DNA of 64,000 nt from NCBI GenBank assembly GCA_031272485.1, contig JAISTV010000015.1, forward strand, positions 1-64,000, in the 5' to 3' direction. The notes under the pieces were generated by a model. It saw only the letters and a list, made by a program, of their open reading frames with translations. It ran no database searches and was not told the origin of the DNA. Source of the stretch: Eubacteriales Family XIII. Incertae Sedis bacterium. GTDB lineage: Bacteria; Bacillota; Clostridia; Peptostreptococcales; Anaerovoracaceae. The position numbers and the translations under genes were made by a program. This document shows positions 1,210 through 63,221 of this stretch, piece after piece; position 1 is the stretch's first letter, and every line of letters begins with the position of its first letter.

Positions 1210-4200
1210 TTATACCTGCTCCCACTCCTTCTTGTCGGAGTGCAGGGAGATCAGCGCGCCTGCCACCGAGATGATGGCCAGGATGGCCATGACCCAGGTG
1301 TAAGTGCCCAGCAGCGCCATGTCGCCCTTGAAGTTAGATGTTAGCAGCAGTACCGGTACGGCTATGAGGGCCGCCAGCGTAGCCAGCGCTATGCCAATCA
1401 GGTCACGGCTGGACCGCTTCCGGACCACGCCCACCTCGCGGATGGCGTTCTCTTCCTTGCCGCGGCGTACCGCCGAGACGATGAGCATGAGCATGATGAC
1501 CACCGAGAACAGTGCGAACACCAGATCCAGCAGCGACCAGACTCCACCGCTTTCCAGCGGAGGCTCGGGGTCATCAATCCTTACTGCCGGCTCGGTCACG
1601 ATAGCCGTCTCCGTCACTATCGTTTCCGTAATAACGTTATTGGTAACGGTGTTCGTGGTCGGTACGATGATGGTCGGACCCGGTACCGGTATGTAAATCG
1701 GCGGGGCCGGTGTGTCATCGCTTATGGTTGCCGTAGCCTTGAAGGTCACCGTCTGCTTCTCCTGCACCGCGAAGGTTATGGTGAAGACGCCGGCTGCCTT
1801 GCTGTATCCGCCTGCGTTGGCCACCACGACCGGCACGCTCTGACCGAACTTCGGGTTATTCGGATCGGCCACGTAGTACGCTGTCGCCTTCGCGAGGCTT
1901 ATGGCCTCTGCCGCCGTTCCGCTAATCGAGGAGAGCGGCCGTGCGAAGTCTTCCGCGTAGGTTGCGTAATCGTCGTTCGGAGTGAACCCTACCAGAACCG
2001 CCGCCTTGCGGGTCACGGTGTTGTGGTCGGAGTCGGTCACGGTGTAGGTAATCGTGTACACGCCTCTTACCGCGGTGTTCACGGTGTTGTTGTGCGTGAT
2101 GCTCGCGGAGAGTACCTCGCCGTCGTCCTCGTTATCCGTGGCGTAGACACCGTTCATGTACTGGCCTTCGCCCCATACAGAGCCGAGCGCGACTTCCGTG
2201 AGGACCGGTGCGTAGAGCTTGGGCGCCGTGCCGTTGCTCACAAGGACCTCTATGGTCGTCGTGGGTCCGTCCTCGCCGGAAGGCTTGAACGTCGCCAGAT
2301 ACACATCGCCCTCGTTAAACTCGCCGTCCCAGAAGTCCTTACCGTCGGTCTTGCGGACCACCTGGCCCACCAGCTCCGCCGTGCCCATGACAGGCAGGTT
2401 CTTGTCGGTCCTCAGGTACGTCTTGGCGCCTGCGCGATCCACGAACTCACTGCTGAAGCTTCTGAGGTAGCTCAGGGACTTGGCATCCGTGAGGTTCAGG
2501 CGGAAGTTGTTCGCCGAGACGGAGTATTCCGTACCGTTGGCCGGTATGGTGCCGCCTTCGCCGTCGCTGTCATCCACGACCTTGGCCGTAATGATCTTGC
2601 TCACTTCCGGATGACCCGCAACCACGATCTTGGGCTGATACTCGCCTACCACGTTCTTGTAGCCGGCGGTCTCTGCCGTGCTGGCGGAAAGCTCGGTGCC
2701 GTCCATCTTCCACGCACGCGCGTTGGACTTCTCGACAATCTGCTTGCCGGCCTGGCTCGGGGTGACCTCGCTCTTGCCGATCATGAAGCTGTATGCCGAC
2801 AGGATGTAGTTCTCGTCGTATACGAAGCTTCCGTCGTCAATGATGACCACTGCCTTCTCTTCTATCTCGTTTCCGGCATCGTCCGTCACGGAGTAGGTGA
2901 CTTCCACCACGCCCGGTTCGGTCGTATCTATGGTCACATCCGCGGGATCCTCATCGTTGATCTTCACCTGGTCGGTGATATCGCCCGTCTCCGGATCCGT
3001 GGCCGTAACGCCGTCCATGAGGTCCTCGCCAGAGGCTTCCTCGCCCACCGGAATGACTATGGGTTTCGTCACATCCAGCGTAGGCGGCTCGTCGCCCGTG
3101 GCCGTAACGTTAATGGTAACTTCTTTCTCCACACGGTCCTCGCCGTCCGTGAGCGTTATGTGATACAGGCCTACCGTGCCGGCGGACAGCGCGCTGAGCG
3201 CCGGATCCATGGCCTTAATCTTCACGCCCGGATCGGTCAGACTACCGTCCGCGTGGGCTCTTCTCGCGCCCGCGTTCAGGGCCTCAAGCACCTTGGCATT
3301 CGTGTTGAGTGCCTGCGCCTCCGCCTGCGTGAGCGTTATGCTGTTTCCGTATACATACGTCGCGTCGCTCGGGTCTACACCGGTCGGGCCGCTCGTCACG
3401 TCCGCATCCACGATTTCCGCGTTCACGGTCTTCGTAACCGGATCCGGGTAAGCCAGCGTGCTTACGCCGCTCGGGGCCGGGAGATCCGCCGCCGCGATAA
3501 CCGGCTCGTACTGACCCACCTTGGCGCTGTAGCCGTCCAGATCTTCAATGTAGACACCGTCCAGCTCTTCGCCCGTGGCGCCGTCGTAGACCTTGGCATT
3601 GGACTTCGTTATTACGTCGGTCGCCAGCTGATCCGCGTCGGTCGGTATGTCTGCCAGATTCGTTACGAACGAGCTCGCCTCGAGTATGCGCCCGCTGCCG
3701 ATTGTGTACCGGCCGTCGTTCACCACAACCACGCGGGTTCCCGTAACCTCATTACCGTCGTCATCCGTGATGGAGTATTCGATCGGGTAGATGCCCGGGG
3801 TGCTGTAATCTATGTCGCCCGTCTTGACTATCTGGTCTGTAATGTCGCCGTCCTCCGGATCGTAAGCGGACACGTCGCTGTCGTCATACGGCTGGCCTAC
3901 CGGCGTTTCTACCGGCGTGGGCACCGTGAGAATGGGTGCCTGGCCAATGGTGACAGTCGCCTTGATCACGGCCTTGAGGTCGTTATCCGCCAGGCCTACC
4001 GCGCCGAACTGGACGTCGTAGCTGCCTGTGACCGGATTGCCCGCGTCATCGTATGCCGTGAAGCCGCCCTTGTTGACCACGCGCACTTCGCGATCCGGCG
4101 CACTGGGCACCAGCTTGATGATCTGCGCCTTGGACTTGCTGATAAAGTTCTTGTTGCTCTTGGCTATCTCGGCCGCCTCGGACGTGGTCGCTATGAAGTC

Positions 4201-7200
4201 GTATGCTATGAGCGCGTACTGCCCGTCCTTGGTGCCCGGATCGACAACCGTAGCCGCCGTTACCGTGCCGGTTATGCTCTTCGTAGCCGTGTGGCCCGGA
4301 ACGGTCCAGGTGAACCCGTAATCCTTGGCGCTCGGCTGCTTGCCGTAACCTGCCGGCATACTCTCAAGCTTCACTTCCAGCGCGTTGCCCTTCACATCGT
4401 ACGCCTCGGCGTAGCTCAGCGAGCGGACCTGCGATTCCGTACCGTTGACGTTCTGCTGCGCCACCACGAAGCTTCTCGCGCCTATGATCACGTCGTTCTT
4501 GCCGTCGCCGTCCTCGTCCTTAATCACGTACCGGCCGTCGGTTACCACCACCGCGCGCTGCGCCGTAGTCTTGTTCCCGTTGCTATCCGTCACGGAGTAG
4601 TTCACCTTGTAGACGCCAATGTTGTGCTTGTCGATGGGCGTTACCGGCGTAGCCGTAATACTATTCGTGATATTCCCGTCTTCCTGGTCGGTGGCCGTCA
4701 CTTCCGCCCGGAGCTCTGCGCTGGTAGCCAGCTGGCTTGCCGCGGTCTGCTGAATAATCAGCGGCTCCTGCGTGAAGGTTATGGACGGTGCCTCGCCGTT
4801 ATCCACGGATGCCGTAATGGGATACGTGATGTCCGGCTTGCCGCTTATGGCCAGGGTAATCGGGAACTTGCCCGGTTTCTTCTGATAGTAACCGCCGTCG
4901 CTCTTCACGACCACCGCCACCGGCTTACCGAATTCGGGGTTCGGGTCGCCGTTATCCAGCGTCCTGCGCAGGTCAATTGCCATGGCATTGGACTTGGTAA
5001 TGACCTCGGCCTCCGTACCCTGTACGTCATAGAGCTTCATGGAGAAGTCTTCCGCACTGATGGCATAGCCGCTGACAACGGTCCAATTGTCGCCTACGAG
5101 CACCACACCGCCTGTTGTAGTCGTGTTGTAGTCGTTGTCCGTTACGCTGTAGGTTACAAAGGCTGCCGACGTCACGGACGTATCCACCGGCGTGTCATGC
5201 GTGACCTTGTCGGTTATGGTTCCGTCTTCCGCGTCCGTGGCCACCACGCCCTGCATGTAGGACGGCGTCGTGTCATTCTGCGCGCCCTCGGGGAAGATGG
5301 CTCCCAGGGAGACCGTCTTCTCTTCCGGCACATCTATGACCGGCGGATGCGCGTTGCTCACCAGCACCGTCACGGTTATGCTCGTTGCCGGCTCTTCCGT
5401 TACGATGTAGGTCGCCAGATACACGTCGCCCTCGTTGAAGTTGCCTGCCTTGAAGCTTTCGCCACTGCCCTGCTTGACCACGTCACCGGAGAGCGCCGGG
5501 GTACCGGCCTGCAGCAGGTTGGTCGTCGTGCGGTCGTAGCTCTTCACCGCGCTGCGGCTGAGGAACTCATTCGCGTAGGCCGGATCGCCGTAGCCGGCTA
5601 TGGCCTGTGCATCCGTCAGGTTGATGCGGATGTTCGCGCCGAGGATGGCATACTTCGTGCCGTTCTCGCCTTCCTGTCCGCCTTCGCCGCTGCTGTCGTC
5701 GTAGACCTTAACCAGGATGCCCTTGGTCAACGAAGTGTGTCCGCTGATGGAGATTACCGGCTGGTACTCGCCCTTGACGTTCGTGTAGCCTGCCGTCTCC
5801 AGGACAATGGGCGTGGCCGGCGTACCGTCGACCCGCGCGGCCATGGCCTGCGACTTCTCAAGAATCTGCTCTCTCGCCTGGCTCGGCGTGACCTCGGAGA
5901 CACCTATGAGGAAGCTCCTGGCCGAGAGGATGTAATCATTATCGTAGACCACGCTGCCGTCGTCGACCACCACCGCCGTGGTGACCTCCGCCTGGTTGCC
6001 GTCCTCGTCCTCTACGAAATACGTTACCTGATAGATGCCCGGCTCATCGCCCGGAATGTTCGGGATATTCTCGTTCTTGTTCTCATCCGGATTGATGATT
6101 ACCTGATCCGTTATATCGCCTACCTCCGGATCCGTGGCCGAGACGCCGTCCATGAGTTCGTCCTTGGTGAGGTTGCCCTCTTCGTCGGACACCGGAATGA
6201 CCAACGGCTGCGGCACGGTGAGAATCGGCTGTCCGCCTTCGCCCACGTTCACGGTGAGCTCTATCACGGTCGTGCCGTCCTCATCGGACACCTTAATCTT
6301 GTACTGACCCACGTCGCCGTCTTCGAAGCTCTTGCCCGGGGTTACAGGCGTGATGGACACGACCTTGGCGCCCGCATCCTCGATCTCGCCCGTGGGCAGG
6401 ACCTTATCCGCGTGGACCCCGAGGGCATCCAGAATCTTCTCCGGCGTATCGAGCGCCTGCGCCTCGGACGGACGCAGATACTCATCCGGGTCATCGCCTA
6501 TGTTGTTACCATAGACATAGTACTTATCCGTATCGCCGAGTACCGGGGTATCCGGACCCTGCTTAATCACTTCCGCGTCTACCACCTTACCGGTTACGGA
6601 CTTCGTGATAGTCCCGGAAGGCGTATCCACGCCGCTTAATGTAATGTCGTAGCTGCCGACCGCCTTGGTGTAGCCGCCGCGGTTGAGGACCGAGAGAGCG
6701 TCTACCAGCGCCGCCGTCGTGCCGTCGTAGAGTTTGGCCGCCGCGTTGGAGAGAATCTCCGTATCGAGGTAAGCCGTATTCGACGAAACGTCTTCCAACT
6801 TGGTTACGAAGGAGAACGCCTGCAGGATGCGGCCATTGCCCACCTCGTAGCTGCCGTCGTTTACCACGACCACGCGCTGCGCTTCTACCGTCACATCGTC
6901 ATCGTCGGTCAGGCTGTACTTGACCACGTAGATGCCCGGGATGGTCGTCGGCACATCGCCGCCCGTAATCTCCACGTCGTCCACGCCGAAGCTCGGGTCG
7001 TTCGGCACGTAGGCCGTAACGCCGTCTGTCGGGTCGAACGTGCCGCCCTCCTGCACCTCGTACGGTGTGGTCACCGCGAGTACCGGAAGCGGATTCGAGG
7101 TTACCAGCGCCTTGATGGTTATTCTCAGCTCGCTCGCCGGCAGACCTTCCGCGCCGAACGTAATGTTATACGTTGCAGACGTGTCGGTAAATCCGCCGTT

Positions 7201-10200
7201 ATCCGTGACCACCGGGTTCTTATCCGGCACGCCCGGTACGAGCTTGACCACCTCGGCCTTGGCCGCCGTGATTATGGCGCCCGAGACGTTTCCGGAGTTG
7301 AGCATGGTGCGCACTTCCGCTGTGGTCTTCGTGAAGTTGTAACCGATAAGCGCGTACTGGCTGTCCTTGGTGCCCGGGTCTACCTCATCCGCGTTGGTTA
7401 TGGTGCCCACGATACTCTTGGTCGTCGTGTGCCCCGTGGCCGTCCACGTGAAGGTGTAGTCGCCCGCCGGCGCGTGCGCCACATAGCCCGCCGGCATGGT
7501 AACCAGCTTGACCTGGAGGATATCGCCCGCGTTCGGACCGGCTGCCACGTAGGCTTCCGCATAGGACGCGCTTCTGACCTGCGACTCGGAACCATCCACC
7601 TGCGCGCTCTTCATAACGAAGTTCCTCGCGCCGATGATGATGTCGTTTACGCCGTCGCCGTCCTCATCTTCAATTATGTAACGTCCGTCGGTTACGACCA
7701 CGGCGCGCTTGCCGTTCGTCGTGTTCCCGTGGCTGTCCGTTACGCTGTAGTTCACCGTGTAGACGCCTATGTTGTGCGCGTCAATCTGTCCGCCTACCGG
7801 GATGGCCGTGGTGCTCGCAAGCAGGTCGCCGTCCTCCGGATCTATGACGCTCATGCCCTCCTTCAGCTCATCCTGCGTGAGGATGTGGCTTACGGCCGTC
7901 TGTGTCACGATGAGCGGATCCTTGCCGAACGTAATCTCGGCGTTGCTGCCGGAATCCACGGTGCCCGTTATGGTCTTGGCCACTTCCGGCTTCTCCGTAA
8001 CCGCGAAGGTTATGTCGAATTCGCCCGGTGCGCGGTTATAGAATCCGCCGTCGTTCGCCACCTTGACCGGCACCTTCTTGCCGAAGTTCGGGTTGGGCGT
8101 CACGCCGTCATCCAGCGTCGCGCGTACGTCGTACGCTTCCGCCTTGGCCAGCGCTATGGCTTCTGCCTCGTTCCAGCTGACCACATCCGTGATATCCACA
8201 GTGAAGCTCTCTGCCACGATGGCATAACCGCTCGTTATGAACCAGTCACCCACGAAGACCATACCGCCCTTGGTGGTCACGTTGTAGTCGTTATCCTCGA
8301 CCTCGTAGGTTACGAGGCTCGCGGACGTCGTGGACGTATCCACCGGCGTATCATGCGTGACCTTGTCCGTTATCGTGCCGTCTTCCGCGTCCGTGGCCAC
8401 CACGCCCTGCATGTAGGACGGGGTCGTGTCTTCCGAAGCGCCCTCGGGGAAGATGGCCCCGACGGAAACGTTCTTGGCTTCCGGTACGGTCAGCACGGCA
8501 TTGGTTGCATTGGAGACGAGCACATCTATGGTAATGTAGGTCGCCGGCTCTTCCGCCACGCGGAAGGTGGCTTCGTAGACATCGCCTTCAGTGAAGGAGC
8601 CCGCCTTGAAGCTGGTGCCGCTGCCCTTCTTGGTCACGTCGCCTACCAGTTCTATCGTGCCGCCCTGCAGCAGGTTTGCCGTAGCGCGGAGGTAGCTCTT
8701 GGCTGCGCTGCGCGTGATGAACTCGCTCTTGTAGTTCGCATCGCTGTAACCGGCTATGGCTGCCGCGTCAATCAGGTTGATGCGGATGTTGGAGGCAAGG
8801 ATGGAGTACTTGACGCCGTTCTCGCCTTCCTGTCCGCCCGGACCGTCGCTGTCGTCATAGACCTTGGCCAGGATGCCCTTCTCGAGGCTGGTGTGCCCGC
8901 TGATGGTGATTATCGGCTGGTACTCGCCCTTGATATTCGTGTAGCCCGCCGTCTCCTTGACAACCGGGGTAGCCGGCGTGCCATCTACGTGCGCCGCCAT
9001 GGCGTCGGACTTGTCGAGGATCTGGTTCGCCGCGTTGCTCGGGGTTACCTCGCTTACGCCGATCAGGAAGCTTCTGGCCGAGAGGACGTACTCATCATCG
9101 TAGACGAAGCTGCCGTCGTCGACCACCACCGCGGTGGTTACCTGATCCTGGTTGCCATCCGCGTCTTCTATGAAGTAGGTCACCTCATAGATGCCGGGCT
9201 CGTTGGCCGGAATGGTGGGCAGCACTTCGTTCTTGCTGCCGTCCGGATTGATGATTACGTCGTCCGTTACGTCTCCCTCTTCGGGGTCAGTGGCGGAAAC
9301 GCCGTCCATGAGGTCGTCCTTCGTGAGGTTGCCCGCCTCATCCGACACCGGAATGAAGAGCGGCTGCGGCACGGTGAGCTCAGGCGAACCGCCCTGGCTC
9401 ACGTTCACCGTGAGGCTTATGGTCGTCGTGCCGTCCAGGTCGGAGACCACTATGGTGTAGACGCCCAGGTCGCCGTCCGCGAGGACGTTGCCCGGCGTAG
9501 CCGGCGTGATGCTCACGATCTTGACACCCGCGTCGCTGATGGCGCCGCCCGGGGCTACCTTGTCCGCGTGCGCGTCAAGTGCCGCCAGAATCTTGGCATC
9601 CGTATCGAGCTGCTGTGCCTCGGAAGGCCGCAGGCCATCGTCGCCGCTGAGGTTATTGCCGTAGACGAAGTAACGATCTGTCTTCTCCGGATCGGGATTG
9701 TCCGGACCCTGTTTAATCACTTCCGCGTCCACCACCTTGCCGGTGATGTTCTTGGTTATGGTTCCCGCAGGCGTATCCACGCCGTTAATGGTAATAGTAT
9801 AGGTGCCGGTCTGCTTCTTATAGCCGCCGTTGTTGCCCACCGAGAAGGCGTCTACCGGCGCTGCCGTCCTGCCGTCGTAGAGGCGAACGTCCGCGTTGGT
9901 AAGGATATCGGAATTCAGCTGCGCATCTGCAGCAGGTACATCGCTCAGCTTCGTGACGAAGGAGAATGCCTGCAGGATGCGGCCGTTGCCGAGCACGTAG
10001 CTGCCGTCGTTTACCACAACCACGCGGGTGGTCGATGTGGTCGAACCGCCGTTGTCGGTCACGGAGTATTCGAGCTTATAGAGGCCCGGAACCGTAGTGA
10101 CTACGTCGCCCGTTATGGCCACCTTCGTGCTGATATCGCCTTCCTCGGAATCCGTGGCCGTAACACCCGTCATGGGATTAAACGTGCCGTTCTGCGGTAC

Positions 10201-13200
10201 TTCTACCGGGGAGGTCACGTCGAGGACCGGAGCCGGCTTCGTACGAACCACGCCCTTGATGATTACGCGCAGTTCACTGTCCGAAAGACCTTCCGCACCA
10301 AACTGGATGTTGTAGGTGGCTGCCGATGCCGCGAAGCCGCCGTTGTTCACCACGCGAGCGCTCTTGGCGGACGCCGTGGGCACGAGCGGAATGACCTCGG
10401 CCTTGGCCTCGGTTATGAGGGCTGCGGACAGGTTCCCGGAGTTAATCATCTCGGTTGCCTTGGGCAGTAGCACGGAGAAGTCAGACGCGATGAGCGCATA
10501 CTGGCTGTCCTTGGTGCCCGGGTCTACCTCGGTGGCATTCGTAATGATGCCCGTGATGGTCTTCTCGGTCGTATGGCCTGTCACAATCCAGGTGAAGTCA
10601 TAGTTTCCGGCCGGCGCGTTGGCCACATAGCCCGCGGGCATGGCCTTGAGCTTCACAGAGAGGCTTGTGCCGGCCTGCGCGCCCGTGGCCACGTACGCTT
10701 CCGCATAGGAGGCGCTTCTGACCTGGGACTCGCTGCCGTCTACCTGCGAACTCTTGAGCACGAAGTTTCTGGCGCCGATGATAATGTCGTTCTTGCCGTC
10801 GCCGTCCTCATCTTCTATGACGTAGCGCCCGTCGGTGACCACCACCGCGCGGCGTGCCGGCTGCGTATTGCCGTGGCTGTCGGTGACGCTGTAGTCCACC
10901 GTGTATACGTTTATGTTGCGCGCGTCAATCTGCCCGCCCACCGGAATGGCCGAGGTGCTGGCAATCAGGTTGCCGTCCTGCAGATCCGTGACCGTCATGT
11001 TGGCCTTGAGCTCGTCCTGCGTGAGGATGTGGCTCGTAGCCGTCTGCTGCACGATGAGCGGATCCTGCGTGAACGTGATGGTCGGTCCGGTACCGCTGTC
11101 GATCTTACCGAGAATCGTCTTGGTAGCCGCCGGCTCCGCCACGACCGCGAACTTGATGGAGTTTTCTCCTACGGTTCTGCTGTAGTAGCCGCCGTCGTCC
11201 GCTACCTTGACCGGCACTTCCTCGCCGAAGTTCGGGTTCGGGTCGCCGTTCGGCAGTGTCTGTCTGAGGTCTACGGCCTTGGCCTGCGCAAACGCTATGG
11301 CTTCCGCCTCATTCGCGTCTATAACTTCCTCGTATTTCTTCGAGAAGTTGTTCGCCGTAATACCATAGCCGCTCACGACCGTCCAGTCGCCTACGAGTAC
11401 CACGCCCGACTTGGTCACCACATTGTGGTCGTCGTCTTCCACGCGGTACGTCACGCGAATGGCCGCCGTGGTCGAGGTGTCCACAGGCGTATCGTGCGTA
11501 ATGCGATCTGTTATGGTTCCGTCTTCCGCGTCGGTGGCGGACACGCCCTGCATGTAGGACGGGGTCGCGTCATTCTCCGCACCCTCCGGGAAGGTGGCGC
11601 CTATGGCTACCGTCTTGGAGGCCGGGACGTTCAGAACCGGATCGGTGGCGTCGGAGACGAGCACGCTAATGGTTATCTGCGTGGCGGGCTCCTCGGCTAC
11701 CTGGAAGGTGGCCTGGTATACGTCGCCCTCGGTAAAGCCGCCGGCCTTGAAGTCCGTACCGCCGCTCACCTTGGTCACGGCGCCCACGAGCTGCGGGGTG
11801 CCGGCCTGCGGGAGGCTGGAGTCTGCACGCAGGTAGCTCTTGGCCGCGCTGCGCGTGATGAACTCTGCGCTGTAACCCGGGTCGGACATGGCCGCTATGG
11901 ATGCCGCGTCGGTGAGGTTAATGCGAATGTTGGAGGCAAGGATGGAGTACTTGATGCCGTTCTCGCCTTCCTGGCCGCCGGGACCGTCGCTGTCGTCGTA
12001 GACGCGCGCGGTGATTTCCTTCACGAGCGAGGTGTGCCCGTCTATGGTTATCTGCGGCTTGTAGTCGCCCTTGACGTTCGTGTAGCCGGCGGACTCCTTG
12101 ACTACCGGGGTAGCCGGGGTGCCGTCTATCTTGGCCGCCATGGCGCCGGAGCTGGAGATAATCTGCGAGCTGGCCTGTCCGGGCGTGACCTTGCTCACGC
12201 CTATGAGGAAGCTGCGTGCGGAGAGGACATACTGATCGTCGTACACGAAGCTGCCGTCGTCTACCACGACTGCGGTCTTCACGAGCGACTCATTGCCGTC
12301 CTCGTCGGACACGTAGTATTCCACCGGATAGATGCCGGGCTCGTTGGCCGGGATGGTGGGCAGCACTTCGTTGCCGGCGCTGTCCGGGTTGATGACGACC
12401 TGATCCGTAATGTCTCCCTCTTCGGGGTCGGTTGCGGATACGCCGTCCATGAGATCGTCGCGCGGCACCACGCCGGGCGCGGTGGTCGCATCGATCTTGA
12501 GCGGCTGCGGCACGGTAAGGACCGGCTCACCGCCGTTGCCCACGCGGATAATCATCTCCGCCGTGGTCTTCCCGTCCGCGTCGGAAACCCGGACCGTGTA
12601 GAGGCCCACATCGCCGTTCGCCAGGCTCTTGCCCGGAGTCTGCGGCGTAACGGATACTACCTTGGCGCCGGCATCCGTTATGGTACCGGTCGGCGACACC
12701 TTGTCCGCGTGCGCGTCGAGCGCCGCAAGAATCTTGGCATCCGTGTCGAGGGCCTGCGCCTCGGAGGGACGCAGATACTCATCCGGATCGTCGCCAATGT
12801 TGTTGCCGTATACGTAGTACTTGTCCGTTTCTCCCACCGCCGGGGAATCCGGGCCCTGCTTGATCACTTCCGCGTCGACCACCTTGCCGGTGATGTTCTT
12901 GGTTATCGTACCGCTCGGGGTGTCCACGCCGTTGATCACGATACTATACGAACCGACCGCGCTGGAGTAGCCGCCAGCACTTCCCACAGATGTGGCGTCT
13001 ACTTGCGCGCCGGTCGTCCCGTTGTAGAGCCGCGCTCCCGAACGGGTGAGGATTTCACTGGTTATATTGCTCGTTACGTCGGACGCCTTCGTGACGAAGG
13101 AGAAGGCCTGCAGTATGCGGCCCGTGCCGAGCACGTAGCTGCCGTCATTCACGACGAGGATTCTGTCGGCCTCGGACGTATTGTCGTCCGCATCCGTTAC

Positions 13201-16200
13201 GGAGTAATGGATGGGATACAGGCCCGGCACCGCCGGATTGACCGGGTTGACAGCCGCGTAGGTCACGGCGTCTACGGTGAGGGTGGGATCGTCCGGATCG
13301 AGAACCGTAATGCCCTGCTTGGCCACGGTGTCGTTCCAGACCGCGCCCTGCGAAATCTCGTAAGGTGTCTGGACTGCCAGCGCCGCCGGGGTGCCGTTAT
13401 AGACCACGCCCTTGATTATCACGCGCAGCGCTGTATCGGACAGGCCTTCCGCACCGAACTGAATCGGGTAGGTGGCCGCCGTGGCGGAGAACCCGTTGTT
13501 GTTCACTACGCGGGCCGCCTTGTCCGGGGCCACGTCAACGAGCTTGATGACCTGTGCCTGCGCCGCCGAAATGAGGGCCGGGCTGAGGTTGCTCAGCATG
13601 GCTTCCGCCTCGGACTTGCGCCGCATGAAGTCGGACGCTACGAGCGCGTACTGGCTGTCCTTGGTGCCAGGATCCACTTCCGTGGCGTTGGTTATTATGG
13701 CCTTGATCTGCTTATAGGTCGTGTAGCCCTCTACCGTCCAGCGGATGGGATACTCGCCCGCGGCAGGCGCTGCCGTATAGCCGGAAGGCGCGCCGGTCCA
13801 CTTGACCGTGAGCGGGTCACCGTCTATGTCGTAGGCTTCCGCATAGGACGCGGAGCGTGCCTGCGACTCGGTGCCGTCCACCTGGGCGCTCTTCATGACG
13901 TAGTTGCGCGCACCTATAATTATGCCGCCGTTGTCATCCTTATCAACTATGTAGCGACCGTCGGTAACCACGACCGCGCGCGTGGCGGTGGTCTGGTTAT
14001 CGTTGCTGTCCTTGACGGTATATGTGACCTTATACACATTTATATTTAGCTTGTCTATGCTCGCACCGCCCGCCACGGTAGCCGTGGTTTGCGCGAGCAG
14101 GTCACCGTCCACGTCGTCTATGACCGTCATCTTGGCCTTGAGCTCTGCCTGCGTCATAATCTGCGAGGTGGCAGTCTGCGTAACCATGAGCGGCGCCTCG
14201 GTGAAGGTAATCACCGGGCCCAGACCCGCTACGGTCAGCGTTACGTCCGGCGTGTTGTAATCCGGATTCGCGTTGACCAGCAGACGGCCGCGGTTCACAG
14301 CCTTGGTGGGCCATGCCGTACCCTGCTTGACGAGCTTGGCCTTGACAATCATGTACACTTCCGTCCCCTGCGGGAGATCGGCGAGGTACTGCTCTATGGC
14401 ATCGGCGTCAAAGGTGAAGGTTGCGGACGTTCCGCTCTGTACCTTCTGCGCCGCCGTCAGCGGAATCTCCGTCGTGCCGGCATAGACCTTTACGTTCCAG
14501 CCTTCCGTGGGATTCTCCATGAGCGCCAGACCGGCATCCATGAGATCGCGGATTTCTATCTTGTAGAACCCGGAGAGGTTCGACGGGATGTTAAACGCAA
14601 TCTTGTACTCGAGCACCTCATCGAAGTTGCTCACCGTACGCGTGGAGACATAGTTGCCCGATGTCGGGTCTTTTACCTTCTTGTTGAACGAACCCTCGAG
14701 TTCGTCAATGACATCGTCCTTCGGGTTGTTGTAGCCGGAGTCCACCTGTTTCGTCTGTTCGGCCTCGGTGCCCAGGGTTATCGTAATGCCCGTTATCTTG
14801 CCGTTGTAAGGCTTCGTGGTGCGACCCATGGTTCCGGAAGGCACGGCGAACTTGACCCCGTACGTGCCGGCCGGCACATCGAAGTAGTAGGAGCCGTCTA
14901 CCGCGGTATTAACCGCAGAGCCCGTGGCATTGCCGGAAGCGTCGAGCAGTTGGACGGCGAGCCCGGAGATGGGCACTTCGCCCGTGTCGTAGACGCCGTC
15001 ATAGTCCGCGTCCACGAACGCCGTACCGTAGATGCGGCCGGTGTTCGACTCTTCGTTCGGGCCCGCGGTGGGCGGATCGCTCGTGTCATTGTTCACTATC
15101 AGGCGACCGGTGTTCACGACCTTGGTGGGCCAGGCGTTATTCACCTTGACGATCTTGGCTTTGACCGTCAAAGTCAGCGTGGCGCCCTCAAGCGCGGTGA
15201 AGTCGGTATTGTCCGCCAGCTTGTAGGAGACTATCTTCTTGCCGGCGTCCGCACCCGTGCCATCGTAGTACGTGGCCGTGCCGGTAACCGTAATGGTCGA
15301 GAGACCCTTCTTGGCCGTTATGGTGACGTTCTCGTCCACGTTGGTCGTGGCCAGTTCCAGACCCGGATCCATGATGTCGAGGATTACCAGGCTGTTGTAG
15401 CCGGCCGTATTGGACGGGACCTTGAAGTCAATATCATAGGTGAGCACCGCGGTGGAATCCGTGATGGGTCCGTTCGTGCTCTTACTACCTACCTTGACGA
15501 GGTCCTTCTTGAAGGCATCCGGATCGTTCGGGTCGGGCATGGTGGGACTGGTGTAACCGGCGTTGAGGACCTTCTCCAGTTCCAGACCGACCTGATCACG
15601 GTCTATGGTTACGGAATCCGTATAGCCGGTGTTGCCGGCATCGTTATAGACTTTGCCGGCAGTACGATCGCTTGCCGGAATCTTCTTCGTGTAGCCCTTG
15701 TTCGATACGGCCGGCGCCTTGACGGTGTACGCACCCGGGGTCAGGCCCGTGAACGCGTAACTGCCGTCCACCGCGGAGGTCGTGGTGGCCACCTTGGTGT
15801 TCGAAGAATCGTACAGTTCTACGGTCAGACCGGAGAGTCCGGAAGCGCCTTCGGAGCCGTTCTTCTCGCCGTTCTTGTCGTCATCGTTGAACAGCACACC
15901 GGAAATCTTACCCATGACCTCGACTTCGGGATCGGTTGGAACCTCATCCTTCTCATTGTTCAGATACAGTTCCGCGTGGTTGCTTACAGAGGCGCCCAGT
16001 GGGGAGGTAAGGTCAAGATTCGCAACTACATCTATGGTAATTTGCTTGTTCGCCAACTGAGCGACTTTGGCAGGTGTGGTCCACGTTACGATTACTTTCT
16101 TGTCCACATACGTGATGCTGTCGGGCGCAGGTGTTGTGCCGCCCGCTACTCTAACGGTAACATTGCTCAGTGCGTTATCCTTGAGCTTCAGGCCCTGCCC

Positions 16201-19200
16201 CAGATCGTCGATGGCCGTGACCGTCGTGATGTAAGACATATCCGCCGGGAACGTTGCCTGGATGCGGAAAGTGATGTCCTGCTTTACGTCGGAGATAACA
16301 ATCTTCTTGGTTGCGTTGCCGTTCGCGTCTATGATGAACTTATCGAAATCGTGTGCGCCTTCGGACACGGTCACATAGGGCGCGGCCGCGAAGGTGGCGT
16401 CGTGATAGTTCGTGGCGACAAGCGGGTTCTTGTTCCCGTTGCTGTCCTCCAGGACTATGTAGATGCGGTCTCCCTTGTTAAGGGTGACGCTGGAAGGCAC
16501 GGTGTAGCTGAACGTACCACCGCCGCTGCCGTTGGGCGTGAGCGTTCCGTAGACCACGCCGCTGCCATCGGAGATGGGCGCCTGCGTGCCCGGCGTCTGG
16601 CCGTTCGGTACAAGCACCGCGTAGACCTTGACCGCTTCTTCCGAGTTGTACGCTTCGTTGGCCGGATAGGTACCGGTTATGGGCGTCGAACGGCCCACGA
16701 AGTACGTGGAGAGCGGGTCTGTAATGGTCGCCGGATTCGGCGGGGTTACGTCTATGACCGTCACCTCTTCCGTGGTTATGTCGGAAGCACTGGCCATATG
16801 GTTCGTGTTGGCGGTCGGGTCATCCGAGGCGCCGCGCCATGCGGAGGTTACCTTGTACTTGTCGCCCGGCGTGAGGAAGGAGCCCTTGCTGTAGCGCAGG
16901 ACGCCGGCTATGGGCGTGCCCGTCTCCTTCTCCCAGACGTTGTCCGGGTTTATGGAGACAGCGTGCACTTCTTCCGTGGTGCCGTTGGCAAACGTGTGGA
17001 GCATGCGGCCGTAGACTTCACCCGTCCACAGCGGACGGCCGGCGAAGTTCAGACCTTCTGCCACGATACCGGTGGCGCGGACGTACTTATCCGCGTTGGT
17101 TACATCAAGGAGATCCTGGATTTCCGGCGGTGCGTTGTTGCCGGAAATACGGGTGTAGGGCTGCATGCCGTTCGGGCCGAAGCTCGAAGTGCCGGTGTTG
17201 AACGTCGAATCGCTGGAATTTGTCAGGTTCGAAAAGTTCGTGCCGGAGAGCGAGTAGGTTATGTTGGACCAGCTCAGGTACGGGTTACCGCTGACCGGAT
17301 TGTAGGGCTTGCCGTTCTGACCGTTGCCCCAGACCGCGAGGTCGGAGAAGTTGGACGTGAACGTGTTATTGGATCCGGCAATCTCAAATACACGGCCGCC
17401 GCCCGGGTGGTAGTTCGTGAAGTCGTAGTAAAGCGGACGATCCGCGGAGAAGCTGAAGTTGTTGCCCGCGGAGAAGATACCTTCCGTGCTACTGTTTATG
17501 TTGCCGTCTGCCAGGAACACAGCGCCCTGCCCTACGACAATCTTACCGCCGGTGCGGCTGCCGCCGGAAACCGCGGCGCCCTTATCGGCTATGATCTGGA
17601 TGGCGGAGCGATAGCCGCTCACGTCAAACGTGAAGTTGTTTGCGTCAAATTCCACGCCGCCGTTTCTCTCTTCGGTGGAGCTGGTGGCTACCGTTGCGTT
17701 ACCGTAGTTGCGGATGGTTACCACGCCGCCGCTGCTTACGTAGAACGAGTTGTTCGCGCCGGAACCGAAGCGGAGGGCCGCCGGGCTGTAGCTGTTTGTG
17801 CGTCCGTATTTAATGACGTTCAGTTTCGCCTGGTTGGAAACGGTAAAGGTCTGGTTGCCCACGAGGCGGATACGGATGGTTGCGCCGTGGTTGTTGTTCG
17901 CGCCGTAGGATTCTACGTTCAGCTCGGTGCCCACGCCGTCCACGAGGAAATTACCGCCGTCGATCTGCTGGATCATGGCAGGCATACCGGTGTTTTCGTG
18001 AGCGGACACGATGTTGACTTTGGCGCCGCCTGTGATGTTGAATCCGCCTGCGTTCGCAAGCAGGGTGGTTGTACCGCCGTCATCGCCGGTTCCCTGGCCC
18101 TGACCGCGGATGTCGAGGATGGTGCCCTCGCCCGAAACGATGAACTCGGCCGTGGAGCCTGAGCTCGTGCCCGGTTGCATCCACACGACCTGCGTGTTTG
18201 CCGTGCCGGTGCCTTCCAGATAGACCTTGGCGCCGTCCGTTACCTGAATGATGTTTCTCTTGGCGGCTACGGCCGACTGGATGGTGCGGCGGATGCTCTT
18301 AATATGTGCCACGGTGGGCGTTCCGTCGGGCGCGGTGCCCGGGAAGAAGATCTGGTTTGCGTTTATGGCCGTATCGTTGGTCGTGCCGGTGACTGTGGAG
18401 CTGTCCCAGCTGACCGTACCCATGATCTGGACTTTCGCGGCCGGCGCCAGTATGAGACCGGCGGAAGGTGCAAGTGTACCGGTGCCGGACTGGACGTTGA
18501 TAAAGTTCACGGTCCAGTTCGGACCCGCGGAAGCGGACTGGCTGTCGTAGGTTATGTCGCCTGCCTCAACAAACGCGTCATCGCCGCCGTTCGAGCGAAC
18601 GACGGTCATGTTCTGTACGGTAAGTGTGCCGGAAGCACTGTTCTTAATAAGAATACCCGGGCGGTTTACGGTCGTATTCGCGCCGCCGGGTCTGAAATCG
18701 AGGGTATAGCCCATGCCGTTAATGGTCAGGCTGCGGGAGATTTCGGGAAGGTCGTTCGAAGAGGCCGTGCTGCTCGTGCGGGTGATATTCTGCGTGAAGC
18801 GAATCTCATTGACCGAGGTATCGGCCATGGCCTGCCGCAGGTCATCCCAGTTGTCGACCGTAACAATTCCCGGCGCTATAACCACGACAGAAAGAGGTGT
18901 TATGTTTACCTCTTCCTCTTCTGCGGTGCCCTCTATGAGGCCGCCGTAGTAGGTTATATCCGCTGTGACCGGAAAGAGCGGAACCGCGCTCGCGCCGTAG
19001 AAGACCGCATCCGGATTATCCGCCTCCAGGCTCCATCCCTTGAAGGTGTAGCCTTCCGGCGCCACAATCTGTGGAATTTGCTCCACCGGGACGGTGCTGT
19101 AGTCCTCCACCTGTACGGTCCATGTGGTCGCACCGCCCTCGAGGGTAACCCCCTCGGGAAGGACAAATGTGACGGTATGTACCGCCGGCGCTTCTACCGG

Positions 19201-19389
19201 TGGGGCTTCTTCGCCCTCCGCCGGAGTTACGCCTTCTTCAGACGCTGCCTGCTCGCCGCCTTCGGTCGATGGGTCATCGCCGAAGATGCTATACGGGACC
19301 ACCATGGTCATCGTAATAGCAAGGGTTAAGAAAAGCGCGACGGCCTTTCCGAGCAGTGAAAACTTCCCCTTCATTTCCAGTCTGTTCAT
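1210..19389 (-). CDS. Giant (~6,060 aa) secreted, C-terminally membrane-anchored repeat protein: signal peptide, InlB-like segment, beta-helix-like region, fimbrial isopeptide/SdrD-B-like domains, four ~1,048-aa super-repeats of DUF5011-like Ig domains and spacer modules, three C-terminal TM segments
   Basis: Single ORF; start MNRLEMKGKFSLLGKAVALFLTLAITMTMVVPYSIFG at 19389 preferred over the ORF-track start 19428 (GGAG RBS just upstream). Super-repeat landmarks ITFTEAPLMV, ITFTQDPLIV, ITFGKDPLIV, ITFTQEPLII. C-terminus WSLLDLVFALFSVVIMLMLIV...IGIALATLAALIAVPVLLL...WVMAILAIISVAGALISL, no LPXTG. Confidence 0.9.
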   Translation of the reverse strand: MNRLEMKGKFSLLGKAVALFLTLAITMTMVVPYSIFGDDPSTEGGEQAASEEGVTPAEGEEAPPVEAPAVHTVTFVLPEGVTLEGGATTWTVQVEDYSTVPVEQIPQIVAPEGYTFKGWSLEADNPDAVFYGASAVPLFPVTADITYYGGLIEGTAEEEEVNITPLSVVVIAPGIVTVDNWDDLRQAMADTSVNEIRFTQNITRTSSTASSNDLPEISRSLTINGMGYTLDFRPGGANTTVNRPGILIKNSASGTLTVQNMTVVRSNGGDDAFVEAGDITYDSQSASAGPNWTVNFINVQSGTGTLAPSAGLILAPAAKVQIMGTVSWDSSTVTGTTNDTAINANQIFFPGTAPDGTPTVAHIKSIRRTIQSAVAAKRNIIQVTDGAKVYLEGTGTANTQVVWMQPGTSSGSTAEFIVSGEGTILDIRGQGQGTGDDGGTTTLLANAGGFNITGGAKVNIVSAHENTGMPAMIQQIDGGNFLVDGVGTELNVESYGANNNHGATIRIRLVGNQTFTVSNQAKLNVIKYGRTNSYSPAALRFGSGANNSFYVSSGGVVTIRNYGNATVATSSTEERNGGVEFDANNFTFDVSGYRSAIQIIADKGAAVSGGSRTGGKIVVGQGAVFLADGNINSSTEGIFSAGNNFSFSADRPLYYDFTNYHPGGGRVFEIAGSNNTFTSNFSDLAVWGNGQNGKPYNPVSGNPYLSWSNITYSLSGTNFSNLTNSSDSTFNTGTSSFGPNGMQPYTRISGNNAPPEIQDLLDVTNADKYVRATGIVAEGLNFAGRPLWTGEVYGRMLHTFANGTTEEVHAVSINPDNVWEKETGTPIAGVLRYSKGSFLTPGDKYKVTSAWRGASDDPTANTNHMASASDITTEEVTVIDVTPPNPATITDPLSTYFVGRSTPITGTYPANEAYNSEEAVKVYAVLVPNGQTPGTQAPISDGSGVVYGTLTPNGSGGGTFSYTVPSSVTLNKGDRIYIVLEDSNGNKNPLVATNYHDATFAAAPYVTVSEGAHDFDKFIIDANGNATKKIVISDVKQDITFRIQATFPADMSYITTVTAIDDLGQGLKLKDNALSNVTVRVAGGTTPAPDSITYVDKKVIVTWTTPAKVAQLANKQITIDVVANLDLTSPLGASVSNHAELYLNNEKDEVPTDPEVEVMGKISGVLFNDDDKNGEKNGSEGASGLSGLTVELYDSSNTKVATTTSAVDGSYAFTGLTPGAYTVKAPAVSNKGYTKKIPASDRTAGKVYNDAGNTGYTDSVTIDRDQVGLELEKVLNAGYTSPTMPDPNDPDAFKKDLVKVGSKSTNGPITDSTAVLTYDIDFKVPSNTAGYNSLVILDIMDPGLELATTNVDENVTITAKKGLSTITVTGTATYYDGTGADAGKKIVSYKLADNTDFTALEGATLTLTVKAKIVKVNNAWPTKVVNTGRLIVNNDTSDPPTAGPNEESNTGRIYGTAFVDADYDGVYDTGEVPISGLAVQLLDASGNATGSAVNTAVDGSYYFDVPAGTYGVKFAVPSGTMGRTTKPYNGKITGITITLGTEAEQTKQVDSGYNNPKDDVIDELEGSFNKKVKDPTSGNYVSTRTVSNFDEVLEYKIAFNIPSNLSGFYKIEIRDLMDAGLALMENPTEGWNVKVYAGTTEIPLTAAQKVQSGTSATFTFDADAIEQYLADLPQGTEVYMIVKAKLVKQGTAWPTKAVNRGRLLVNANPDYNTPDVTLTVAGLGPVITFTEAPLMVTQTATSQIMTQAELKAKMTVIDDVDGDLLAQTTATVAGGASIDKLNINVYKVTYTVKDSNDNQTTATRAVVVTDGRYIVDKDDNGGIIIGARNYVMKSAQVDGTESQARSASYAEAYDIDGDPLTVKWTGAPSGYTAAPAAGEYPIRWTVEGYTTYKQIKAIITNATEVDPGTKDSQYALVASDFMRRKSEAEAMLSNLSPALISAAQAQVIKLVDVAPDKAARVVNNNGFSATAATYPIQFGAEGLSDTALRVIIKGVVYNGTPAALAVQTPYEISQGAVWNDTVAKQGITVLDPDDPTLTVDAVTYAAVNPVNPAVPGLYPIHYSVTDADDNTSEADRILVVNDGSYVLGTGRILQAFSFVTKASDVTSNITSEILTRSGARLYNGTTGAQVDATSVGSAGGYSSAVGSYSIVINGVDTPSGTITKNITGKVVDAEVIKQGPDSPAVGETDKYYVYGNNIGDDPDEYLRPSEAQALDTDAKILAALDAHADKVSPTGTITDAGAKVVSVTPQTPGKSLANGDVGLYTVRVSDADGKTTAEMIIRVGNGGEPVLTVPQPLKIDATTAPGVVPRDDLMDGVSATDPEEGDITDQVVINPDSAGNEVLPTIPANEPGIYPVEYYVSDEDGNESLVKTAVVVDDGSFVYDDQYVLSARSFLIGVSKVTPGQASSQIISSSGAMAAKIDGTPATPVVKESAGYTNVKGDYKPQITIDGHTSLVKEITARVYDDSDGPGGQEGENGIKYSILASNIRINLTDAASIAAMSDPGYSAEFITRSAAKSYLRADSSLPQAGTPQLVGAVTKVSGGTDFKAGGFTEGDVYQATFQVAEEPATQITISVLVSDATDPVLNVPASKTVAIGATFPEGAENDATPSYMQGVSATDAEDGTITDRITHDTPVDTSTTAAIRVTYRVEDDDHNVVTKSGVVLVGDWTVVSGYGITANNFSKKYEEVIDANEAEAIAFAQAKAVDLRQTLPNGDPNPNFGEEVPVKVADDGGYYSRTVGENSIKFAVVAEPAATKTILGKIDSGTGPTITFTQDPLIVQQTATSHILTQDELKANMTVTDLQDGNLIASTSAIPVGGQIDARNINVYTVDYSVTDSHGNTQPARRAVVVTDGRYVIEDEDGDGKNDIIIGARNFVLKSSQVDGSESQVRSASYAEAYVATGAQAGTSLSVKLKAMPAGYVANAPAGNYDFTWIVTGHTTEKTITGIITNATEVDPGTKDSQYALIASDFSVLLPKATEMINSGNLSAALITEAKAEVIPLVPTASAKSARVVNNGGFAASAATYNIQFGAEGLSDSELRVIIKGVVRTKPAPVLDVTSPVEVPQNGTFNPMTGVTATDSEEGDISTKVAITGDVVTTVPGLYKLEYSVTDNGGSTTSTTRVVVVNDGSYVLGNGRILQAFSFVTKLSDVPAADAQLNSDILTNADVRLYDGRTAAPVDAFSVGNNGGYKKQTGTYTITINGVDTPAGTITKNITGKVVDAEVIKQGPDNPDPEKTDRYFVYGNNLSGDDGLRPSEAQQLDTDAKILAALDAHADKVAPGGAISDAGVKIVSITPATPGNVLADGDLGVYTIVVSDLDGTTTISLTVNVSQGGSPELTVPQPLFIPVSDEAGNLTKDDLMDGVSATDPEEGDVTDDVIINPDGSKNEVLPTIPANEPGIYEVTYFIEDADGNQDQVTTAVVVDDGSFVYDDEYVLSARSFLIGVSEVTPSNAANQILDKSDAMAAHVDGTPATPVVKETAGYTNIKGEYQPIITISGHTSLEKGILAKVYDDSDGPGGQEGENGVKYSILASNIRINLIDAAAIAGYSDANYKSEFITRSAAKSYLRATANLLQGGTIELVGDVTKKGSGTSFKAGSFTEGDVYEATFRVAEEPATYITIDVLVSNATNAVLTVPEAKNVSVGAIFPEGASEDTTPSYMQGVVATDAEDGTITDKVTHDTPVDTSTTSASLVTYEVEDNDYNVTTKGGMVFVGDWFITSGYAIVAESFTVDITDVVSWNEAEAIALAKAEAYDVRATLDDGVTPNPNFGKKVPVKVANDGGFYNRAPGEFDITFAVTEKPEVAKTITGTVDSGSNAEITFGKDPLIVTQTAVSHILTQDELKEGMSVIDPEDGDLLASTTAIPVGGQIDAHNIGVYTVNYSVTDSHGNTTNGKRAVVVTDGRYIIEDEDGDGVNDIIIGARNFVMKSAQVDGSESQVRSASYAEAYVAAGPNAGDILQVKLVTMPAGYVAHAPAGDYTFTWTATGHTTTKSIVGTITNADEVDPGTKDSQYALIGYNFTKTTAEVRTMLNSGNVSGAIITAAKAEVVKLVPGVPDKNPVVTDNGGFTDTSATYNITFGAEGLPASELRITIKALVTSNPLPVLAVTTPYEVQEGGTFDPTDGVTAYVPNDPSFGVDDVEITGGDVPTTIPGIYVVKYSLTDDDDVTVEAQRVVVVNDGSYEVGNGRILQAFSFVTKLEDVSSNTAYLDTEILSNAAAKLYDGTTAALVDALSVLNRGGYTKAVGSYDITLSGVDTPSGTITKSVTGKVVDAEVIKQGPDTPVLGDTDKYYVYGNNIGDDPDEYLRPSEAQALDTPEKILDALGVHADKVLPTGEIEDAGAKVVSITPVTPGKSFEDGDVGQYKIKVSDEDGTTVIELTVNVGEGGQPILTVPQPLVIPVSDEEGNLTKDELMDGVSATDPEVGDITDQVIINPDENKNENIPNIPGDEPGIYQVTYFVEDEDGNQAEVTTAVVVDDGSVVYDNDYILSARSFLIGVSEVTPSQAREQILEKSQAMAARVDGTPATPIVLETAGYTNVKGEYQPVISISGHTSLTKGILVKVYDDSSGEGGQEGENGTKYAILGANIRINLTDAQAIAGYGDPAYANEFLSRSAVKSYDRTTTNLLQAGTPALSGDVVKQGSGESFKAGNFNEGDVYLATYIVTEEPATSITVTVLVSNAHPPVIDVPEEKTVSLGAIFPEGAQNDTTPSYMQGVVATDAEDGTITDKVTHDTPVDTSVTSAAFVTYSVTDNDYNTTTTGGVVLVGDNWTVVSGYAISAEDFSMKLYDVQGTEAEVITKSNAMAIDLRRTLDNGDPNPEFGKPVAVVVKSDGGYYQKKPGKFPITLAISGKPDITYPITASVDNGEAPSITFTQEPLIIQQTAASQLATSAELRAEVTATDQEDGNITNSITATPVTPIDKHNIGVYKVNYSVTDSNGNKTTAQRAVVVTDGRYVIKDEDGDGKNDVIIGARSFVVAQQNVNGTESQVRSLSYAEAYDVKGNALEVKLESMPAGYGKQPSAKDYGFTWTVPGHTATKSITGTVTAATVVDPGTKDGQYALIAYDFIATTSEAAEIAKSNKNFISKSKAQIIKLVPSAPDREVRVVNKGGFTAYDDAGNPVTGSYDVQFGAVGLADNDLKAVIKATVTIGQAPILTVPTPVETPVGQPYDDSDVSAYDPEDGDITDQIVKTGDIDYSTPGIYPIEYSITDDDGNEVTGTRVVVVNDGRYTIGSGRILEASSFVTNLADIPTDADQLATDVITKSNAKVYDGATGEELDGVYIEDLDGYSAKVGQYEPVIAAADLPAPSGVSTLAYPDPVTKTVNAEIVDADVTSGPTGVDPSDATYVYGNSITLTQAEAQALNTNAKVLEALNAGARRAHADGSLTDPGVKIKAMDPALSALSAGTVGLYHITLTDGEDRVEKEVTINVTATGDEPPTLDVTKPIVIPVGEEASGEDLMDGVTATDPETGDITDQVKINDEDPADVTIDTTEPGVVEVTYSVTDDAGNEIEEKAVVIIDDGSFVYDENYILSAYSFMIGKSEVTPSQAGKQIVEKSNARAWKMDGTELSASTAETAGYKNVVGEYQPKIVVAGHPEVSKIITAKVVDDSDGEGGTIPANGTEYSVSANNFRLNLTDAKSLSYLRSFSSEFVDRAGAKTYLRTDKNLPVMGTAELVGQVVRKTDGKDFWDGEFNEGDVYLATFKPSGEDGPTTTIEVLVSNGTAPKLYAPVLTEVALGSVWGEGQYMNGVYATDNEDDGEVLSASITHNNTVNTAVRGVYTITYTVTDSDHNTVTRKAAVLVGFTPNDDYATYAEDFARPLSSISGTAAEAISLAKATAYYVADPNNPKFGQSVPVVVANAGGYSKAAGVFTITFAVQEKQTVTFKATATISDDTPAPPIYIPVPGPTIIVPTTNTVTNNVITETIVTETAIVTEPAVRIDDPEPPLESGGVWSLLDLVFALFSVVIMLMLIVSAVRRGKEENAIREVGVVRKRSSRDLIGIALATLAALIAVPVLLLTSNFKGDMALLGTYTWVMAILAIISVAGALISLHSDKKEWEQV
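4771..14211 (-). repeat. Tandem super-repeat landmarks inside the giant gene; period 3132, 3144 and 3153 bp between the four ITFx starts
   Basis: ITFT/ITFG codons at 14211-14200, 11079-11068, 7935-7924, 4782-4771; the fourth copy continues to ~1700. Confidence 0.9.
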
Positions 19390-19421
19390 TTTTAATACTC
19401 CACATTTCCCCGATATAACGT

Positions 19422-19446
19422 TTCGCAAATAATTGCACTTTGGGGG
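19422..19446 (-). promoter_or_regulatory. Candidate SigI-type promoter of the giant gene (CCCCC-16-CGAA)
   Basis: minus strand GGTCCCCCAAAGTGCAATTATTTGCGAAACG, placed 5' of the re-annotated start at 19389; resembles C-rich -35 / CGWA -10 described for sigma-I promoters. Confidence 0.35.
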
Positions 19447-24344: not shown

Positions 24345-24462
24345 GTTTAACACCTGGCCTTTCCCCGACACTACACTATTAATTTGTTCCACGTAGCCTG
24401 AAGCAAAAACTAAAATGCCCACAATTCACTTCAGGTTAAAAGAGCTCCCACTTATATACGGC

Positions 24463-26740: not shown

Positions 26741-26744
26741 TCCT

Positions 26745-27473: not shown

Positions 27474-27528
27474 ATGAAATATTTTACCCCGCTTGCCCTT
27501 TTTCATCAAGTTGGTTATCCTATTATGT

Positions 27529-61691: not shown

Positions 61692-61703
61692 GGCTAAAAA
61701 AGA

Positions 61704-61831
61704 ATCAGGGGGATTCGCTTTGAAGACAGCATCTGCTGGCACGAGACTGAACAGAGGCGGCCGCCGACAAGGCCATTTGAATGCCGCTGCTTCGCCCCGC
61801 CATCGGCGCGGGAATCCCGCATCCCCCTGAT
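61704..61831 (-). ncRNA. Candidate structured RNA upstream of the RT, closed by an 11-bp inverted repeat
   Basis: minus ATCAGGGGGAT (61831-61821) ... ATCCCCCTGAT (61714-61704) followed by TCTTTTTT; internal hairpins GCGGG-ATT-CCCGC, GGCC-ttgtcggc-GGCC, CAGC-AGAT-GCTG. Confidence 0.5.
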
Positions 61832-62332: not shown

Positions 62333-62426
62333 GATAGTTCCTCCACTGCCTCGAAAGAGAAAACGTACCTTAATTATCACAGATGAACAGGCTACGGGCA
62401 AGCAAAAATTCAGACGATAGACATAG

Positions 62427-63203: not shown

Positions 63204-63221
63204 GAAATGCTGCAGCATTTC
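63204..63221. promoter_or_regulatory. Perfect 18-bp palindrome in the peptide-gene leader
   Basis: GAAATGCTGCAGCATTTC. Confidence 0.8.

Follow-up and report, generated by a model that had tools for sequence, protein, structure and literature searches.

Fibrillar adhesins and fibrillar-adhesin-like proteins (PMC8286594, PMC9210967) are very long, with an adhesive domain at the N-terminus, a tandem stalk and a C-terminal anchor, and the giant bacterial protein analysed in this work is like them in all of these respects. In the periscope proteins, such as Rib, SasG and Sgo_0707 (PMC8201768), a rod of tandem folded domains projects the N-terminal domain, which should also be the plan of our protein, and the fold predicted for part of its stalk is nearest to Rib and similar domains. 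The repeats of periscope proteins are nearly identical in DNA, with 82–100% protein identity in Sgo_0707, and their number varies between strains (PMC8201768). Listeria InlK and the S-layer proteins SbsB and Sap likewise display Ig-like domains, joined into strings, on the cell surface.

Higher-order super-repeats of domains are best known from titin. The 11-domain period of titin fits a periodic partner, the thick filament. In the C-zone of the titin A-band (PMC7427331), super-repeats of 11 domains and ~1,050–1,100 aa, ~44 nm by length, follow one another, two (or three) other beta-sandwich domains come after each Ig domain, and domains at the same position are similar between the repeats. 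The protein described here is organised alike, with a predicted length and predicted sandwich folds.

The giant gene and its domain architecture

The window analysed is a stretch of 64,000 nucleotides (contig C30:1-64000) from a MAG of 1.26 Mb, in 34 contigs and 60% complete. The giant gene lies 1.2 kb from the contig end. Started at the ATG at 19389, with a GGAG 8 nt upstream, it encodes 6,059 aa, in agreement with the surface protein of ~6,060 aa in a preliminary description of this DNA; the frame is open up to a TTG at 19428 (1210..19428, 6,072 codons). From the N- to the C-terminus, we find a putative signal peptide, PF20585, TIGR04226 alternating with SdrD_B, four super-repeat units with 16 PF16403 stretches, a Pro/Thr linker and FILTED (Table 1). 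That is, an adhesive head domain, an Ig-like stalk and a C-terminal anchor follow the signal peptide, which supports the assignment to surface proteins. FILTED scores 51–56.6 bits in the giant protein (curated cut-off of NF052597: 40). Since ten proteins of this genome are above that cut-off, FILTED is a general anchor of the organism. Eight further FILTED-anchored ORFs above the cut-off lie on contigs C8, C9, C15, C18 and C20 of the same partial 1.26-Mb genome.

Table 1 Features of the giant gene and of its surroundings in the window
Feature	Position	Strand	Remarks
Giant surface protein gene	1210..19389	-	6,059 aa from the ATG
Signal peptide, N-terminal	19279..19389	-	Putative, read from the translation: basic N-region, hydrophobic stretch; AVALFLTLAITMTMVV
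Pectate_lyase_5 putative adhesive domain PF20585, protein head	18478..18864	-	E 1.2e-15, aa 189-317
Pilin-type region up to aa ~1739	14212..16326	-	TIGR04226 (RrgB K2N isopeptide D2), 3 stretches, alternating with SdrD_B PF17210, 2 stretches
Super-repeat unit 1	11080..14211	-	1,044 aa, 11 modules
Super-repeat unit 2	7936..11079	-	1,048 aa, 11 modules
Example triplet Ig3-S5-S6 of unit 2 (Ig, Sa, Sb)	8497..9381	-	AlphaFold2 mean pLDDT 96.1
Example spacer S5 of unit 2	8851..9105	-	85 aa; AlphaFold2 mean pLDDT 98.1, predicted Rib/Ig-like fold
Super-repeat unit 3	4783..7935	-	1,051 aa, 11 modules
Super-repeat unit 4	1705..4782	-	~1,026 aa, 11 modules, most diverged
Pro/Thr/Val-rich linker, stalk to anchor	1540..1704	-
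FILTED domain NF052597, C-terminal	1225..1539	-	Hydrophobic, multi-segment; membrane/wall anchor
Secreted protein gene	20001-24422	-	1,473 aa; DNRLRE-like, lamin-tail-like (LTD) and chitobiase C-terminal domains
SigI/RsgI-like sigma and anti-sigma pair	25991-27698	-	RsgI_N, RsgI_M, Sigma70_r2
Reverse transcriptase, UG26 class	60468-61742	-	PADLOC RT_UG26, E 1.5e-150
RT-5 structured RNA	61711-61811	-	RF03026, 50.8 bits
Region of low G+C	62001-64000		G+C 0.44 vs ~0.60 elsewhere

The gene for a secreted protein lies directly upstream of the giant gene, and the SigI/RsgI-like pair is upstream of both surface-protein genes. Regulators of this type control polysaccharide-degrading systems in some Clostridia. 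At the other end of the window, RT-5 overlaps the start of the UG26 reverse transcriptase gene, so a candidate-defence enzyme is paired there with an RNA family of unknown role, and the adjoining region of low G+C may be a mobile or defence island.

Four units of eleven modules form the stalk

The preliminary description had placed ITF landmarks at nt 14211, 11079, 7935 and 4782 with periods of 1044, 1048 and 1051 aa, and all of these values are exact; in the protein, the unit starts are aa 1740, 2784, 3832 and 4883. In the self-comparison that it proposed as a check, identity peaks at offsets of 1,046–1,052 and 2,091–2,100 aa, and BLASTP aligns unit with unit end to end (E=0). Units 1 and 2 are identical at 65% of amino acids, units 1 and 3 at 62%, and units 2 and 3 at 68%, while unit 4 shares 46–49% with the others; at the nucleotide level, the identity is 56–71%.

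Within each unit, the proposed order of Ig-S-S-Ig-S-S-Ig-S-S-Ig-S is confirmed by spacer HMMs for left-out positions, by profile–profile comparison and by four PF16403 (Bact_surface_Ig-like) stretches per unit, and the total stalk contains 44 modules in four units. PF16403 matches exactly 16 stretches of the ORF, 12 of them above the gathering cut-off alone or with their neighbours, and unit 2 as a whole gives an E of 4.2e-28. Four Ig domains per unit are therefore right, but their VVVxDGxY/F ending is not universal: it is exact in nine of the 16, and Ig4 ends in a VLVGDW-type motif.

We have calculated the substitution rates between units by the Nei-Gojobori method. The pS values of 0.50–0.62 agree with the earlier remark that the DNA copies differ at many synonymous positions, and dS is 0.83–1.32, i.e., near saturation, with a dN/dS of 0.30–0.40. 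This low ratio at a dS of 0.8–1.3 supports an old duplication under purifying selection, as had been suggested. Gene conversion between units was also considered and rejected, as no module shows a low pS or a near-identical patch and the divergence is spread over all modules.

The spacers are predicted folded domains of two subfamilies

Seven spacer modules per unit had been counted, and the number holds; they are apparently not mere spacers but folded domains of ~85–118 aa in two subfamilies. We built an HMM from the remaining spacers for each position and scored it on the position left out, where shuffled controls reach at most 13.8 bits. S1, S2, S3, S5 and S7 score 24–56 bits and S6 scores 16–26 bits. 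The 8–15 bits of S4 are not above the control level on the HMM test alone, and in profile–profile comparison S4 matches S2 with 97% and S6 with 95% probability.

The two subfamilies alternate along the unit, with S1, S3, S5 and S7 belonging to Sa and S2, S4 and S6 to Sb. The mean hhalign score is 77 within Sa, 66 within Sb, 34 between them and 7 against Ig domains, and S7 is also similar to S2. In carriers of super-repeats, 170 of the 171 Ig domains with an abutting neighbour have Sa after them. The same holds for all 34 cases in relatives of the same family without super-repeats (G020, G054, G055), whose proteins, from 3,565 aa to 6,374 aa or more in length, share the triplet grammar. Because the spacers are two alternating folded subfamilies, the basic element of the stalk should be the Ig-Sa-Sb triplet, and the 11-module unit equals four triplets minus one spacer.

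A search of 61 spacers against Pfam-A found no convincing family and no Rib, no family being matched by more than one member, and the spacer profile found nothing significant among PDB sequences. In Foldseek, the S5 model is nearest to Rib, InlK and ZmpB inter-domains (TM 0.55–0.66, E above 0.01); compared with Rib folds, the spacer model has a TM of 0.4–0.56, that is, a similarity of fold without a Rib sequence match. The neighbours of the triplet model are InlK, the S-layer proteins SbsB, Sap and EA1, tandem Rib and cadherins, at E values of 1e-5 to 1e-3 that reflect local resemblance. For both models, the closest folds are surface domains of the bead-on-string type. Overall, the models depict the spacer as a Rib/Ig-like sandwich remote from any solved structure, and the spacers as an unnamed and confidently predicted domain family with two subfamilies.

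Two phyla share the block, and its traceable carriers are from termite guts

Relatives were collected by a scan of 84,980 species' genomes and by whole-genome searches. Full-length blocks, i.e., counterparts of the units above, are found in MAGs of Clostridiales Family XIII (Cf509 and Md513 series) and in Actinomycetota MAGs named Actinomycetes, Eggerthellaceae or Coriobacteriia (Nc150, Nt197 and Emb289 series). The latter series denote the guts of Nasutitermes corniger, Neocapritermes taracua and Embiratermes neotenicus (PMC7024585), and Md513 denotes Mastotermes darwiniensis (PMC12483993). All named block carriers with a traceable sample are termite-gut MAGs, and the termite gut is presumably the source habitat of the giant gene's own host as well. 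This host belongs to Family XIII, since G318, G319 and G489, genomes of its family, agree in the places and scores of their matches with the Family XIII records G103, G099 and G104. In one genome (G101), such genes number at least five, and the four complete ones encode 4,848–5,675 aa; another (G100) has one of 7,382 codons, and the same-genus genome G001 shows no match to the giant gene.

The genome of the giant gene contains a second gene of the family on contig C19 (L040:2-4279, plus strand), which is cut by the contig end and encodes a complete block, the last part of a further one and a FILTED C-terminus. On a contig of Clostridium tarantellae (L015), two adjacent ORFs, one with at least 3,070 aa and the other with at least 1,858 aa, consist nearly entirely of Ig-type modules, without spacers.

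According to eleven position-specific models, the 27 full blocks in seven genomes have one order, I1 S1 S2 I2 S3 S4 I3 S5 S6 I4 S7. When models trained on one phylum only were applied to the other, 117 of 118 and 155 of 160 modules (272/278) were assigned to their own position, with a median margin of ~50 bits, and the misses were Ig domains. Most blocks of Coriobacteriia and of G104 have a twelfth domain after S7, which makes four complete triplets; the generic spacer HMM recognises most of these domains, and the giant protein's own blocks have none. Four triplets of three domains would be the simpler ancestral state. A fusion of Sa and Sb in S7 of the giant protein is mostly unsupported, since this S7 aligns along its length to S7 of the 12-module blocks and a weak second match to S8 appears in one unit only; we prefer a simple loss of the twelfth spacer (or its gain elsewhere).

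As for the two ends of the relatives, the PF20585 head is present in seven of ten scanned N-terminal parts, and the C-termini are FILTED or LPXTG-like. Both kinds of C-terminus occur in G101, where loci L060, L061 and L064 combine the same stalk with LPXTG-like PKTGD C-termini and InlB-type repeats, without FILTED, and L062 and L063 have FILTED-like ends.

Possible function of the protein and of its period

Judged from its domains, the protein has the features of fibrillar-adhesin-like proteins, i.e., a distal N-terminal adhesive domain (PF20585), a repetitive stalk and a cell-surface anchor. We put the probability at about 0.78 that it is a giant fibrillar-adhesin-like protein, anchored, with a long stalk of prefabricated blocks and an adhesive head. 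This reading builds on the sequence, order and homology of the modules, their cross-phylum conservation, the repeated duplication of the block and the domain assignments of anchor and head, to which it would add a surface location, a rod shape, an attachment function and lateral transfer. After export, FILTED at the C-terminus would keep the protein on the cell surface, and a rod of 44 Ig-like domains would hold the isopeptide-stiffened domains and the beta-helical (pectate-lyase-like) head at a great distance from the cell. The rod would be nested, from the domain to the Ig-Sa-Sb triplet, from there to the block of 11 domains, and finally to the four blocks. At ~4 nm per ~95-aa domain, the value for Ig/Fn domains of titin (PMC7427331), a block would be ~44 nm long and the repeated rod ~175 nm. 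Wood particles, the gut wall or flagellate protists may be the targets of attachment, though PF20585 is a "putative" adhesive domain in Pfam, which weighs against the adhesin reading.

The period of 11 or 12 domains, on the other hand, may have no function of its own, and we lean slightly towards this view, which is compatible with an adhesin. In-register recombination would yield whole blocks, and the identity of each position would be kept by descent and by purifying selection on folding and domain interfaces. Actually, units 1–3 are as diverged as drifting duplicates (dN/dS 0.3–0.4), G020, G055 and G054 have equally long triplet stalks without the block order, and the block size varies from 11 domains in the giant protein to 12 in most blocks of Coriobacteriia and G104. 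Partial blocks point in the same direction, although they are mostly found at array ends, and an order that both phyla share in each of the 11 positions, at ~40% identity, is more than stalk length alone would need.

In a rather improbable reading, the protein would serve not as an adhesin but as a polymer subunit, secreted or like those of S-layers, or as a giant carbohydrate-active protein whose head acts on plant polysaccharide. The fold of the head is named after pectate lyases, the triplet model resembles SbsB, Sap and EA1, the neighbouring gene encodes a secreted DNRLRE/LTD/chitobiase-C protein, and a SigI/RsgI-like pair lies upstream, all of which would suit such a protein. However, the sole head domain found is Pfam's adhesive version, domain-profile scans of the N-terminal 1,738 aa matched no catalytic family, and single anchored chains with diverged stalk domains are untypical of S-layer subunits.

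A little more doubtful still is a functional period, as in titin, in which each block would provide one binding site or fit a periodic partner. The stalk would then be the ruler or register of a surface assembly in termite-gut bacteria of both phyla, and the block would have been passed between them in working order. Candidate partners, again with small probability, would be a glycan lattice, another surface filament or a neighbouring giant protein of the same cell. It is simpler to assume that the period is kept by block-wise recombination.

Duplication and probable transfer of the block

As the block occurs in other genomes of two phyla, it is older than the giant gene. In the tree of the 27 blocks, units 2 and 3 group with a support of 100/99 and unit 1 joins them with 100/100; units 1–3 are the product of two whole-block tandem duplications in the lineage of the giant gene. 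Unit 4 falls outside them without strong placement, and one clade of all four units is neither shown nor rejected (p-AU 0.35). The block on contig C19 groups with a block of G099 (100/99). Whole-block tandem duplicates are also seen in G100, G101 and G104, and block duplications reach a support of 99–100 in four genomes from both phyla. The block would be a prefabricated stalk segment that already existed when its spread between Coriobacteriia and Family XIII of the Clostridia began in the guts of termites, and stalks would be lengthened by duplication of whole blocks.

The mean identity of blocks is 36–41% between phyla and 39–45% between genera of the giant gene's family. A near-full block is present in five of 351 genomes of this family, in five of 101 relatives of G101 and in three of 300 genomes of that class, and among 399 genomes of the giant gene's phylum in its own genome only. 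As the identity across phyla is close to that between genera and the presence is rare and patchy, lateral transfer of the block between phyla is likely. It should have taken place long ago rather than recently, because the composition has adapted: in their tetranucleotide profiles, the giant genes and the contigs that hold them match the genomes to which they belong. The fit of giant genes and flanks to their genomes also excludes that contamination in binning has produced the occurrence in two phyla, and several genomes of the Coriobacteriia group carry the block.

Old vertical descent with massive loss may look similar if fast-evolving stalks saturate. We consider it unlikely, however, that the stalk predates the split of Bacillota and Actinomycetota and was lost in most lineages. 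The tree allows the blocks of Coriobacteriia to form one of its sides, with a phylum split weakly supported in either direction (60/77) and a transfer direction that the tree does not resolve. Against such descent stand the presence of the block in about 1–5% of the sampled genomes per group, a divergence between phyla like that between genera of one family, and the named traceable carriers, all of which are from termite guts. Finally, collapse or expansion in assembly, the artefact named in advance as a refutation, is excluded for practical purposes in spite of the fragmented MAG and the contig end 1.2 kb from the gene, since the units differ at 29–44% of bases, similar arrays occur in independent genomes, and the longest exact DNA repeat within the ORF is 44 bp (TRF reports no tandem repeat in the ORF; its longest period is 500), which makes such an artefact implausible.

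Comparison with known systems

Compared with fibrillar adhesins, the giant protein is unlike in its stalk, a three-level nested repeat of PF16403 and two unnamed kinds of predicted Rib/Ig-like domain, as well as in its block of 11–12 domains found across phyla and in its FILTED anchor. To InlK, SbsB and Sap, the resemblance is at the level of the fold only, with E values of 1e-5, 11–12% identity and poor global superposition. The protein was rejected as a periscope protein, as its units share 46–68% of amino acids and 56–71% of nucleotides and no exact repeat exceeds 44 bp.

No earlier description of such a super-repeat stalk was found in the literature searched, a coverage outside which most subscription journals lie. 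The nested super-repeat of 11 or 12 domains, its conservation in two phyla and the unnamed spacer family are new, while the fibrillar-adhesin-like plan is known. Since the same block, in the same order, builds giant proteins of another phylum, our results suggest the exchange of an entire prefabricated stalk segment between phyla and its lengthening block by block. They point to an exchange of stalk segments between termite-gut bacteria, and they define an unnamed family of stalk domains.

The closest analogue of this organisation should be the 11-domain super-repeats of titin, by convergence. Homology is not claimed. Titin is eukaryotic and bound to muscle, its order is Ig-Fn-Fn-Ig-Fn-Fn-Fn-Ig-Fn-Fn-Fn, and the domain scans of the giant protein matched neither Fn3 nor I-set. 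With a bacterial stalk that has the same number of domains per period, the question arises whether a periodic partner is required for such an arrangement or recombination alone is enough.
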